From assembly GCF_034531395.1 (NCBI RefSeq), contig NZ_JARVCO010000002.1, positions 372,001 to 436,000 on the forward strand: a DNA stretch of 64,000 nt, written 5' to 3'. A program made the position numbers and the translations under genes. The DNA comes from Pontiella agarivorans (GTDB taxonomy: Bacteria; Verrucomicrobiota; Kiritimatiellia; Kiritimatiellales; Pontiellaceae). The notes beneath the pieces were generated by a model, which saw nothing but the letters and a program-made list of their open reading frames with translations, searched no databases and had not been told where the DNA came from. Each line of letters opens with the position of its first letter. Position 1 is the stretch's first letter. This document shows positions 18,419-24,029 of the stretch, piece after piece.

Positions 18419-18846
18419 CAGTTTGAAGTTAGGAGTGTGTAGTTTGAGGGAGGATCTGCGTGACAGATTATCAGGATTTAGTTGTTTGGCAGAGGTCTGT
18501 CGCTTTTGTGACGGGAGTTTATGAGCTTACAGCGGCCTTTCCTGAAGATGAAAAATTTGGGCTTACGAATCAGATGCGCCGAGCTGCAGTCAGTATTCCG
18601 TCAAACATTGCAGAAGGTAGTGCTCGTCATCATTCGAAAGATTTCATTCACTTTCTGCGTATAGCAGATGGTTCTGCTGCAGAGCTTCAAACTCAACTCT
18701 TAATTTCTCGTAACCTGGGTTTTATAGACAACACGAAAATTAACCTGAATGAACTTCATGAAATCAGAAAAATGTTGTCTGGGCTTATTAAATCGTTGAG
18801 AAATTGAATTATGAATCTTCAAACTACTGACTCCAAACTTCAAACT
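18419..18846. mobile_element. Inverted-repeat-bounded cassette carrying a four-helix-bundle gene
   Basis: The gene at 18460 is bracketed by imperfect 30-bp inverted repeats. The left arm is 18420-18449 and the right arm 18817-18846, identical at 26 of 30 positions when one is reverse-complemented; both share AGTTTGAAGTT and GTAGTTTGA. The whole unit is about 428 bp and splits the usually adjacent pair gmd-fcl. Four-helix-bundle (S23) genes are known as intervening sequences in 23S rRNA genes, also with stem-forming ends. No transposase is encoded. Mobility is inferred. Confidence 0.6.
18460..18807 (+). CDS. Four-helix-bundle protein (S23/IVP family)
   Basis: The 115-residue protein matches the four-helix-bundle family first seen as the 23S rRNA intervening-sequence protein: 'DLVVWQRSVAFVTGVYELT', 'QMRRAAVSIPSNIAEGSARH' and 'FLRIADGSAAELQTQLLISRNLGFI'. 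The start is GTG 18460 with the ribosome site gggagg at the inner edge of the left inverted repeat. Biochemical function is not established for the family. It lies between gmd and fcl but is unrelated to fucose synthesis. A decayed second copy is at 39021. Confidence 0.9.
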   Translation: MTDYQDLVVWQRSVAFVTGVYELTAAFPEDEKFGLTNQMRRAAVSIPSNIAEGSARHHSKDFIHFLRIADGSAAELQTQLLISRNLGFIDNTKINLNELHEIRKMLSGLIKSLRN

Positions 18847-19922: not shown

Positions 19923-20030
19923 AGGGTAAAAGTTTATGAAATAGGAACCCAATGGGATATTTTTTGCGACCGGCGATGTCGGGCCGCGGCAGCTGAAAGC
20001 AGGAATTTTCCCGGAAAACGTATATTGAAG

Positions 20031-20855
20031 ATGCCGAAGCTTATATTTGTTGTGGGCTCTCCGCGATCGGGGACCAGTTATGTTGCTCGCGCGCTGGCGC
20101 TGGCAGACAACGCGGCCTGTTTGGAAGATACCGGTCTTTTCAGTCACTTGGGTGCCCGTTCAGATATTCATCTCTTTCAGCGTCTCATGTATCCGACGGG
20201 CGTTTTTCCCTACTCGTGGATCTACTGTAAAGGAAGAGGCTTTGCGGACCGGCTGTTCCGGAACAACCGGCTGGAACATGCTCTGAAAAATATGCTGCAG
20301 GCGTGCGGTAATGTGGTGGAGACTGCTGCGGCGGAACACAACGGCGAACCCGAGCTTGATCCGGTTGCGGAGAGCAGTCTGCAGAAACTCAGCGAAACCC
20401 TTTCGGATGCCGAGCAGATATTTGGTTTCGGGAAATTGGCGGAATCCTTTTTCGAGGAATTTGCAAAGAGAAAAAACTGCTCCATGGTTATTGAGAAAAC
20501 GGCGGAACATCTGCGTGTTCTTCCGGTGATTCATGCCCTGTTTCCTGAAGCCCGTGTCGTACTTGTTCGTCGTGATAAAAGGCAGTGCATTGCGTCTTAC
20601 TTTAAAACTTACGGGGCAGGAACCGGCGTGTACCGTTTTATTCCACAGCGCGTTAAAGAAGCGGTGCTCTGGAATCGGCTGGTCCGTGATGAGGGACGCG
20701 AGCGCTGGGCCGTTGAACAACCCTGGGTAACCGCTGTTGAATTCAACGCGGTTATGGATCATCCGGTTGAACAGCTTACCCGGCTGTCAGCCGGTGTGGG
20801 GCTGACGCTTCCGAGAGAAAAGCTGACTCACTTCCTTGGGAAAACAGCTGCATAG
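20031..20855 (+). CDS. PAPS-dependent sulfotransferase
   Basis: This 274-residue cytoplasmic protein has the two PAPS-binding signatures of sulfotransferases: the 5'-phosphosulfate loop GSPRSGTSY at residues 9-17 and a 3'-phosphate-binding segment 'VVLVRRDKRQCIASYF' near residues 174-189. The middle third is family-variable and should set acceptor specificity, which cannot be read here. ATG 20031 is preferred to the in-frame TTG 20025. With PAPS-forming genes upstream and no reductive sulfate genes nearby, it probably sulfates a sugar of the polysaccharide or its lipid-linked repeat. Confidence 0.88.
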   Translation: MPKLIFVVGSPRSGTSYVARALALADNAACLEDTGLFSHLGARSDIHLFQRLMYPTGVFPYSWIYCKGRGFADRLFRNNRLEHALKNMLQACGNVVETAAAEHNGEPELDPVAESSLQKLSETLSDAEQIFGFGKLAESFFEEFAKRKNCSMVIEKTAEHLRVLPVIHALFPEARVVLVRRDKRQCIASYFKTYGAGTGVYRFIPQRVKEAVLWNRLVRDEGRERWAVEQPWVTAVEFNAVMDHPVEQLTRLSAGVGLTLPREKLTHFLGKTAA

Positions 20856-21192: not shown

Positions 21193-21945
21193 ATGAAAAG
21201 ATGGAGTTGGTTGGTATTTGGTTTATTAAGTGTTTCAGTACGTGCTGGAACAATCGTGTTGCACAACGGGGGGAGCGAGGTGCACACAACCGGTGATCAA
21301 ATTGACGAGGCCGATCACCATGGTCTGTCAACAAATGTTGTAGAGATCGCGGGACTGAATCTATTCATACAATCGGGGGCGACGAATCAGAATGTAAACG
21401 CGTTAGCCTCCAGTATGGGTATAGACAGCGATGGGGGGGCTGACGACACCGACCGCTTTGAATTCGGGGAGCATATGATTTTCTCTTTTGATCAGAAGGT
21501 GGAAATCACAAAGCTTGATATGGTCGGGTTTGAATCGAATTCAACGTTCATCGTTGATGTGGATGGTCAGGCACCCTTTAGCATTACATATGAGGATCTG
21601 GAGAATAAAACATCCCAGTTTTTCACGACGAATATTGTTGTTGAAGCCCACACGGACATTCTCGTCTCTGTCGGTAACACCAATAGCGTAATCGGACTGC
21701 AGAGCATTGATTTGGATGTGCTCGAGGGAAGCGGTAATCTTTTCCTTCGTCTGGAAACTTCCAATGACTGGATAAATATTGCCGCGGAATTCGATGGGCC
21801 GGTCACAACCAATTATGTGCTGCAGTCGAGCACAAACCTGGCTTCCAATGTCTGGAATGGGGTGAGCACTTCGTTCCGTTCCGATACAAACTGGAGTTTT
21901 AACACAACCCGATCCACCGAATATTTCCGAGTTATTGAACAATAG
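21193..21945 (+). CDS. Secreted protein of unknown function
   Basis: The preferred start is ATG 21193, after the ribosome site aaggagaagg. This gives about 250 residues with a signal peptide (MKRWSWLVFGLLSVSVRAG). The middle carries an acidic block 'GIDSDGGADDTDRFEFGE' followed by 'FSFDQKVEITKLDMVGF', a pattern shared with the PEP-CTERM protein at 23286. The C-terminus ('YVLQSSTNLASNVWNGVS...STEYFRVIEQ') resembles the short beta-rich end domain common on exported proteins of Verrucomicrobia and Kiritimatiellota. No enzyme motif is seen. It lies 66 bp upstream of the exported ligase. Confidence 0.7.
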   Translation: MKRWSWLVFGLLSVSVRAGTIVLHNGGSEVHTTGDQIDEADHHGLSTNVVEIAGLNLFIQSGATNQNVNALASSMGIDSDGGADDTDRFEFGEHMIFSFDQKVEITKLDMVGFESNSTFIVDVDGQAPFSITYEDLENKTSQFFTTNIVVEAHTDILVSVGNTNSVIGLQSIDLDVLEGSGNLFLRLETSNDWINIAAEFDGPVTTNYVLQSSTNLASNVWNGVSTSFRSDTNWSFNTTRSTEYFRVIEQ

Positions 21946-22011
21946 AATCGTGGATAAGAACGCCCGCCTGTATCCGGGAAACGAGTGTTGAGCAAGTAAC
22001 GGATTTTCAAT

Positions 22012-23289
22012 ATGGCCCCGCTGCTGCAGTCTCTCAAAAAAATGATATGCCTTGGCCTTCTGCTGATTATTCCGCCATCCGTTGAGGCGGTGCCGGAAGA
22101 AATCAGAGTTCAGGCGGGGCATCTCAAAGCGATTCTGGCCCAGGCGGACGAAGCCTATTATAACCGGGATGAGTCGATCATGGGGGATGAGGCCTATGAC
22201 GTATTGCGCGGTCGGTATGAGCAGCTGGTTGCCGACTTTCCGGAACTGGCCGATACGCCCGGTGTCGGGGCGACGGGTGAGCAGAGCAAGATCCGGCACC
22301 GAAAGCCCGTGCTCAGTCTCAAAAAGGCCTACTCCGATGATCAGGTGGCCCGGTTCATCAAAGCCGCTGGAACGGAAGCGCTTTTTTGTATTGAGCCGAA
22401 AATCGATGGTATGAGCTTAGTGCTTCATTATCAAAACGGGATTCTGGTTCGGGCATTGACACGGGGCGACGGTGAAAAAGGGTCGGATGTAACGCGGGCG
22501 GTGATGGCTGCCGGTTGTGTCCCGACCGGTCTGAAAGGAACGGTGTCGGATTTATCACTGCGAGGAGAGCTGTTTTTTACGCATGCTGCTTTTGAAAAAC
22601 TGAATAGTCGGAGAGTAAAGGAAGGGCAGGCCGCGCTGAAGAGTGCCCGTAACTCAGCCTCCGGAACCATGCGGCTTTCCGACTATGCCGAAATTGCGCG
22701 GCGGGGGCTCAGTTTTAGCATTTTTGAATGGATCGCAAGTGATGAGCTCACGCCCGCGACTCACCAGGAGGCGCTGGAGCTGTTGTGGGAACTTGGTTTT
22801 TCAACCGTCGAATCGACTACAGTTTCTGCTGATCGGGTATTCGAAGAAATCACAACACTGAACGGTCGCCGTTCAATTTTACCCTATGAAACCGATGGCA
22901 TCGTCATTCGAATAAACAATCGGGCTCGTTTTCAGGAAATGGGGGAAACCGCCCGCTATCCCCGAGGTGCATTAGCCCGGAAATACAAAAGCAAGCCGAT
23001 GATTACCCAGCTGCTGCGCGTTGAATGGTCACAGGGTGAAACCGGAAAATGGACACCGGTTGCGCACTTTGAACCCATTGAGATGGAGGGCGCAACCATC
23101 CGGTCCGCCACACTGCACAACGAAGATTATCTGCACGCATTGGATGTGCGGATCGGCGACTGGATCCAGGTCATCCGCGCCGGCGGAACGGTCCCTGAAA
23201 TTATCGGAATCTGTACCGATCGCCGCACAGGAAAAGAAACGCCGGTACCGGCAAAGCCAACAGTTAAAAAAAGCGGAAGAATAGAATGA
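22012..23289 (+). CDS. Exported LigB-like NAD+-dependent DNA ligase (short form)
   Basis: The 425-residue product begins with a signal-peptide-like segment (KKMICLGLLLIIPPSVEA, then VPEE). It then has domain Ia ('YYNRDESIMGDEAYDVL'), the adenylation domain with nucleophile Lys130 in KIDG (130-133), 'TRGDGEKGSDV', 'RNSASGTMR', motif IV 'ETDGIVIRINN' (Arg where Lys is usual), and an OB fold ending 'TLHNEDYLHALDVRIGDWIQVIRAGGTVPEI'. It stops just before the zinc finger, so Zn, HhH and BRCT parts of LigA are absent. E. coli LigB also starts with a signal-like peptide and lacks BRCT. ATG 22045 is an alternative start. The stop overlaps the next ATG (ATGA), so the two are coupled. Confidence 0.85.
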   Translation: MAPLLQSLKKMICLGLLLIIPPSVEAVPEEIRVQAGHLKAILAQADEAYYNRDESIMGDEAYDVLRGRYEQLVADFPELADTPGVGATGEQSKIRHRKPVLSLKKAYSDDQVARFIKAAGTEALFCIEPKIDGMSLVLHYQNGILVRALTRGDGEKGSDVTRAVMAAGCVPTGLKGTVSDLSLRGELFFTHAAFEKLNSRRVKEGQAALKSARNSASGTMRLSDYAEIARRGLSFSIFEWIASDELTPATHQEALELLWELGFSTVESTTVSADRVFEEITTLNGRRSILPYETDGIVIRINNRARFQEMGETARYPRGALARKYKSKPMITQLLRVEWSQGETGKWTPVAHFEPIEMEGATIRSATLHNEDYLHALDVRIGDWIQVIRAGGTVPEIIGICTDRRTGKETPVPAKPTVKKSGRIE

Positions 23290-23867
23290 AGAGCTCAGGA
23301 ATAGTATATCTCAGTCTGATGATGGCACTTCCAATGATGGGAAAATCGGATGTCGTTTTCGACCTTTTGGGGAACAGTGCAATCTATTCTGTTCTGGATG
23401 GACAAAGTACCGCTTCGGTTACAAATGGCAGCTTGATCGCCACACTCTCTTCCTCAGAGGGGACGCTTAACCGTACGGCATCCGGGTTCGGAATGAATGG
23501 CCCGGGTAGTGACGACACAGACGCGCTCAATTTAGATCAATACATCGATATCACCTTCGACCAAACCGTACGCTTTAAAAATGTGAATGTATCGTCCTGG
23601 GGATCCGGTAGTTCCGCCGAAATCCGTTTAGGCAGCAACGATGTTTACACTGCGATGGGAACGATAAGCACCACGGGCAATGCCCCCTTCGATTTCCGAA
23701 TTTCCGGAGGACAAACCGTACGCATTTATGCCACGGGAGAAACAACACCGACCAACGGATTTTCTTTTGATGGTTTTAGCGTCGAAGCCATCCCCGAACC
23801 CGCCGTTATAAGTTTTATCGCACTCATCAGTCTAGGTAGTCTCGCCATCCGAAGAATGTTTAACTGA
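23286..23867 (+). CDS. PEP-CTERM-anchored exported protein
   Basis: The 193-residue protein has a signal peptide (first 20 residues) and a classic PEP-CTERM tail: PEP at 170-172, a hydrophobic segment, and RR at 189-190, three residues from the end. Such tails are processed by an exosortase and are typical of exopolysaccharide producers. No exosortase gene is in the window. The central part shares the pattern 'DDTD...ITFDQTV' with the secreted protein at 21193. It is translationally coupled to the ligase gene by a 4-bp overlap. Confidence 0.85.
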   Translation: MKSSGIVYLSLMMALPMMGKSDVVFDLLGNSAIYSVLDGQSTASVTNGSLIATLSSSEGTLNRTASGFGMNGPGSDDTDALNLDQYIDITFDQTVRFKNVNVSSWGSGSSAEIRLGSNDVYTAMGTISTTGNAPFDFRISGGQTVRIYATGETTPTNGFSFDGFSVEAIPEPAVISFIALISLGSLAIRRMFN

Positions 23868-23953
23868 GCCCGTATTCTTCTGGAAGCTACGCAGAAGCCA
23901 TCACCGGAAACCGATTGCTTTACAAGCGGCCAGCGTGCATAACGAAAAAATAG

Positions 23954-23986
23954 GACTGACACCTAGACCCTAGACTGACACCTAGA
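23954..23986. repeat. Two direct copies of GACTGACACCTAGA
   Basis: A 14-bp sequence occurs at 23954-23967 and again at 23973-23986, in the gap where base composition changes from GC-richer to AT-richer. It may mark an old junction or insertion footprint. Confidence 0.55.
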
Positions 23987-24029
23987 GGTACCTAAATTTT
24001 TAACAACGAATACATTTCGAAAACTTATT

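Follow-up and report, generated by a model that had tools for sequence, protein, structure and literature searches.

A clade of minimal NAD+-dependent DNA ligases with predicted Sec signal peptides in Pontiella agarivorans and its relatives

NAD+-dependent DNA ligases have been portrayed as large, conserved enzymes of replication (PMC8455567), and in the larger ligases HhH or other clamp domains are held to be indispensable for DNA binding (PMC6144786). Lig E is described as a minimal, leader-bearing accessory ligase that is almost confined to the proteobacteria and lacks conserved synteny (PMC8455567, PMC6144786); it grips DNA via basic residues of its core and needs no extra domains to do so (PMC6144786). 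Neisseria gonorrhoeae forms less biofilm when it is lost, and its proposed task in that species is the joining of extracellular DNA (PMC10799422, PMC12221376). Among the NAD+-dependent enzymes, Escherichia coli LigB has been tied to intracellular oxidative-damage tolerance in a study that does not discuss export (PMC5507437), and a short core chain is found, so far as the structure entries consulted describe it, in the heterodimeric ligase of phage PR1 (PDB 9hu3, 9i5i). A limited search of open-access papers yielded no description of an exported NAD+-dependent ligase.

We analysed a stretch of 64,000 nucleotides from Pontiella agarivorans (hereafter the window), which encodes a candidate for such an enzyme. 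We think it fairly probable that this protein is a Sec-exported minimal NAD+-dependent ligase whose substrate is nicked DNA in the periplasm or outside the cell, which would make it the product of convergence with Lig E. The ligase gene, its predicted parts and the two flanking genes are as follows:

21193 (or 21166)..21945, + strand: secreted protein with a signal peptide, common only to the window and the genomes G025 and G005
22012..23289 including the stop, + strand: predicted exported minimal NAD+-dependent DNA ligase, 425 aa, with Pfam DNA_ligase_aden and DNA_ligase_OB
22012..22089, + strand: predicted Sec signal peptide, residues 1-26, with cleavage between SVEA and VPEE
22090..22287, + strand: Ia (NMN-binding) segment, boundaries approximate, Pfam match below cut-off
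22285..22992, + strand: adenylation (nucleotidyltransferase) domain, with K130 in KIDG, R151, E186, R213, R231, D295 and K324
23005..23235, + strand: OB-fold domain, with R389 (E. coli R379) kept, E343 in place of R333, and K346 gained
23286..23867, + strand: PEP-CTERM-type secreted protein, 193 aa, with a 4-bp overlap with the ligase gene (ATGA) and the C-terminus IPEPAVISFIALISLGSLAIRRMFN, a motif read by eye because the ORF triggers none of the PEP-CTERM models in Pfam or NCBIfam

Pfam searches placed the adenylation domain of the ligase at residues 92-327 (E 6.7e-59) and the OB fold at residues 332-408 (E 3.8e-25), along with a weak Ia match, under the Pfam cut-off, at residues 47-80, where Y49, D59, Y62 and D63 align to Y22, D32, Y35 and D36 of E. 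coli LigA. The motif-I lysine is K130, within EPKIDG (KxDG type). With the adenylation and OB domains, the motif-I KxDG and the Ia residues all present, the protein is, judged by its sequence, a member of the NAD+-dependent DNA ligase superfamily. Pfam returned no match to Zn, HhH or BRCT domains in the window ligase, nothing was found C-terminal to the OB fold, and the frame stops after this domain in all 22 family members with a full C-terminus. Across 23 sequences, the residues K115, D117, G118, R136, G137, E173, R200, R218, D285, G286, K314 and R379 (E. coli LigA numbering) are invariant, with E113, D138, G139, G172 and R277 almost invariant, as are the Ia residues; among the NMN-contact positions of Ia, Y22 and Y35 are invariant, D32 and D36 nearly invariant, and H23 is mostly Y. 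Pairwise dN/dS within the family is 0.10-0.20, figures that are only approximate because dS is near or above 1. Intact adenylation chemistry is thus a well-supported prediction, given this complete set of residues under purifying selection. A confident AlphaFold2 model of the ligase (mean pLDDT 85, pTM 0.71) matches LigA structures in the PDB, including the nicked-DNA complex 2owo.

The family has lost the otherwise universal R333 and possesses six basic positions specific to it (R66, K105, R200, K210, R323 and K346), one of which adjoins motif V and another of which lies in the OB domain. These gains resemble the binding of DNA by Lig E via basic core residues (PMC6144786), and together with the loss of R333 they may represent an altered grip on DNA following the loss of the HhH clamp. 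The disappearance of all the C-terminal DNA-binding domains and of R333, with retention of the NAD+-binding and adenylation residues, would also fit a redirected chemistry, namely an exported NAD+-dependent nucleotidyltransferase that transfers AMP to a non-DNA target or splits NAD+ to NMN for scavenging. However, an enzyme so changed would be expected to lose its OB/DNA face, whereas the family conserves its OB fold, retains R379 and the OB residues of motif VI type, shows no variation at R218 and R200, and conserves the new basic residues as well. We accordingly regard such a redirection as unlikely.

Turning to the export of the putative nick-sealing enzyme, the N-terminus of the window ligase, MAPLLQSLKKMICLGLLLIIPPSVEA followed by VPEE, has the marks of a typical Sec signal peptide: a basic n-region, a hydrophobic core (KD mean 3.27) and small residues at -3 and -1. 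Such a leader, in which a short basic part leads into a hydrophobic segment and then a small-x-small site, usually followed by AP, is present at the corresponding position in all 22 family copies that have an N-terminus, one further copy that loses this end at a contig boundary being left out of the count. Scored by simple rules and with start sites partly picked by hand, signal peptides were called in 22/22 family members versus one weak call among 60 start choices of about 30 LigA controls. A crude test detected a Shine-Dalgarno-like site ahead of the signal-peptide Met in 12 of the 22 orthologues, with only a weak one in the window gene. Since the OB domain is not followed by an anchor, the enzyme would be expected to be soluble, either periplasmic or secreted. 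We also considered a lipoprotein and Tat export: in many leaders a Cys lies close to the cleavage site without forming a proper lipobox, and a twin-arginine motif is not consistent among them. Taken together, the leaders provide good support for the prediction that the short ligase is made for Sec export. The sequence-only reading, which had described an exported NAD+-dependent ligase with an intact adenylation Lys130, a signal peptide and no Zn, HhH or BRCT domains, is borne out on each of these points across the clade.

A different account of the leader is that the N-terminal hydrophobic segment stays unprocessed and that the protein is a cytoplasmic or membrane-tethered accessory repair ligase. 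NAD+ is cytoplasmic, and E. coli LigB, an enzyme investigated for its part in repair, which has a similar leader and scores with a signal peptide, has nonetheless been linked to an intracellular function (PMC5507437). Against this, the cleavage site, AxA before AP, is consistent in nearly all members even though the leader sequence itself is divergent, and an unprocessed anchor would need no such site. This alternative, too, strikes us as improbable.

The same genome encodes a separate full-length LigA (a 694-aa open frame with 35% identity to the window ligase), so the replicative job is covered. Among 117 relatives, the short ligases show 49-68% identity to the window protein, with the LigA matches lying apart at about 30-38%, and scores against a family profile split cleanly into short frames at 500-700 bits and LigA-type frames at about 280-355 bits. 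An orthologue of the short ligase is found in 22/43 genomes of the order, and in 16/22 of those with completeness >=90% and contamination <=5%. Outside the order it was detected in a single genome (G409) among 388 sampled across the phylum, and neither 51 relatives of G409 nor the remaining 235 sampled genomes of its class yielded it. A contig scan with a single protein query, covering other phyla only very thinly, recovered nothing but a clostridial LigA. Genomes with the short ligase are on the whole larger than those without it (Mann-Whitney p 0.005, uncorrected for relatedness). In a maximum-likelihood tree of the mature core, all 22 members form one clade (99/100 support) that stands apart from the LigA of the phylum, other bacterial LigA, phage ligases and E. 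coli LigB. By this phylogeny the short ligase is a lineage distinct from LigA. A mobile or viral origin was considered and set aside: tblastn matches on plasmids and phages are all <60% identical, the best of those listed have 34-38% identity and are annotated or full-length LigA-type where checked, and narrow peptide patterns found no relative in viral contigs.

The family shares with LigA the homologous Ia, adenylation and OB domains and the same catalytic residues; LigA differs in being 670-700 aa long, in having Zn, HhH and BRCT domains and no signal peptide, and in falling outside the clade. The window ligase scores under both curated LigA cut-offs (334 vs 444 bits and 326 vs 369 bits) and its score on the LigB model is 153 bits, where the cut-off is 498. 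The LigA models fit it better, and the earlier designation "LigB-like" does not hold. Like the family, E. coli LigB is a second NAD+-dependent ligase without BRCT and with a signal-like leader; it differs in that it keeps the HhH region, is about 560 aa long and is very divergent. Its very long branch prevents reliable placement in the tree, though it still lies outside the family. The start of E. coli K-12 ligB (L063 3489-5171) scores as a signal peptide by the rule used for the exported family, and on account of this leader LigB may be an unrecognised second exported NAD+-dependent ligase. The sequence-only reading had named LigB as a partial precedent for a signal-like N-terminus.

By analogy of design, Lig E is the closest functional parallel of the exported NAD+ family: it too is an accessory enzyme beside LigA, consisting of a bare core with a periplasmic N-terminal leader, without conserved synteny and with a patchy distribution (PMC8455567, PMC6144786). 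Lig E, however, uses ATP and belongs to Pfam PF01068/PF14743, whereas the window protein, with its Ia domain, matches only the NAD+ ligase families and neither of these two. PF01068 was found in 0/43 genomes of the order; given this absence and the NAD+ type of the enzyme, the exported family is not a Lig E. The same count disposes of Lig E or another ATP-dependent ligase as a stand-in in the genomes that are free of the short ligase.

These observations lead us to propose the following scheme. A second, accessory NAD+-dependent ligase, pared down to Ia, adenylation and OB domains, would leave the cytoplasm by the Sec pathway, and removal of its signal peptide would yield a soluble mature enzyme. 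K130 would then be adenylated from NAD+, and AMP moved onto the 5' phosphate of nicked double-stranded DNA with closure of the nick, a reaction that would take place in the periplasm or immediately outside the cell. It would probably serve to maintain the length of extracellular or incoming DNA, a use already proposed for Lig E in the biofilms of gonococci. In this scheme we infer actual export, access to NAD+ beyond the cytoplasm, nick sealing without HhH, and the biological role. Points that speak against this scheme are the loss of all clamp domains, the failure of ComEC to discriminate carriers (see below) and the lack of a conserved partner gene indicating a role. The evidence suggests that bacteria with the short ligase mend DNA outside the cytoplasm using NAD+. 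We see roughly even chances for the broader proposition that an extracytoplasmic NAD+-powered ligase arose independently of Lig E, that the export of minimal ligases had at least two origins, and that periplasmic or extracellular DNA repair is general among bacteria and able to use NAD+ from lysed cells or the environment. If the nick-sealing reading is true, a core-only exported NAD+ clade would parallel Lig E in the ATP family, and extracytoplasmic DNA sealing would have been invented more than once; the cofactor source of such an enzyme and the effect of ligation on the extracellular DNA of biofilms or on DNA under uptake would become testable. The protein would also be among the smallest NAD+-dependent ligases, and useful for studying nick sealing without the HhH clamp.

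The ligase locus of the window is surrounded by clustered nucleotide-sugar and polysaccharide genes, among them one for a sulfotransferase, but this placement in a polysaccharide cluster with the secreted protein is confined to the three closest genomes (the window, G025 and G005). That the ligase gene overlaps the PEP-CTERM gene and comes after a secreted-protein gene is as the sequence-only reading gave it; the 4-bp overlap, and a G005 ligase that also adjoins a PEP-CTERM gene, could suggest that ligase, PEP-CTERM protein and exopolysaccharide locus form one surface system. In G025, the nearest relative, however, all that is left of the downstream PEP-CTERM ORF is a fragment broken by a stop and by shifts of frame, beside an intact ligase, and in G005, the next nearest, the gene is a different one located upstream. 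Elsewhere the contexts are unrelated: in the sister family f2 (L035, L040, L042, L044, L045 and L046) a radical SAM gene (PF04055) comes shortly after the ligase and prfB after that, an order conserved locally, and other loci have a GFO/IDH oxidoreductase, a response regulator, HU and gyrA-side genes among the neighbours. In the contexts compared, no neighbour gene is common to the whole ligase family and no PEP-CTERM gene was seen beside the ligase beyond the closest genomes. Exosortase, tried as a correlate, is present in 39/43 genomes of the order, in carriers and non-carriers of the ligase alike, and is therefore non-discriminating. The PEP-CTERM coupling is thus local, and the PEP-CTERM gene is probably not part of the ligase system. 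The neighbourhood comparison largely refutes the single surface system, to which we give very little credence, and with it the earlier claim of coupling to PEP-CTERM and exopolysaccharide genes; looking for these three genes together elsewhere, as had been proposed, gave a negative result.

It is also highly improbable that the ligase core is one half of a heterodimer with a separately encoded DNA-binding subunit: the PR1 chain (about 339 aa) is among its sequence and fold matches, but PR1 is, as far as the entries go, a phage enzyme with a partner subunit and about 28% identity, and a partner looked for among the neighbours here did not emerge as a gene common to the family.

Searches for functions associated with the predicted exported ligase gave the following. 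ComEC is near-universal in the order (39/43 genomes, with or without the ligase), and hence non-discriminating. Matches to TIGR00426 appeared to track the ligase in the genus, pointing to a ComEA/competence link; the four loci fetched encode proteins of about 775 aa, which we take to be the RNA-binding protein Tex, matched through its HhH, and the association was discarded for this reason. A search for a paired secreted endonuclease (PF04231) returned no match above the cut-off.

The cluster around the ligase offers some further observations. A Sulfotransfer_3 family sulfotransferase (window 20025-20855), also present in G025, lies beside the ligase, and its presence within the nucleotide-sugar cluster points to a sulfated surface polysaccharide. 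All three closest genomes have a small extra ORF between the gmd-like and fcl-like genes, of differing families, at these positions:

window 18460-18807; L033 12017-12400; L034 4382-4783: ORFs of the gmd-fcl slot

In the window and G005 the slot holds a four-helix 23S rRNA-intervening-sequence-type protein (PF05635), and in G025 a PDDEXK_3/GxxExxY-type protein (PF13366). Finally, a short repeated text, ctagactgacacctaga, occurs at window positions 23950-23995, in the non-coding stretch past the PEP-CTERM gene.
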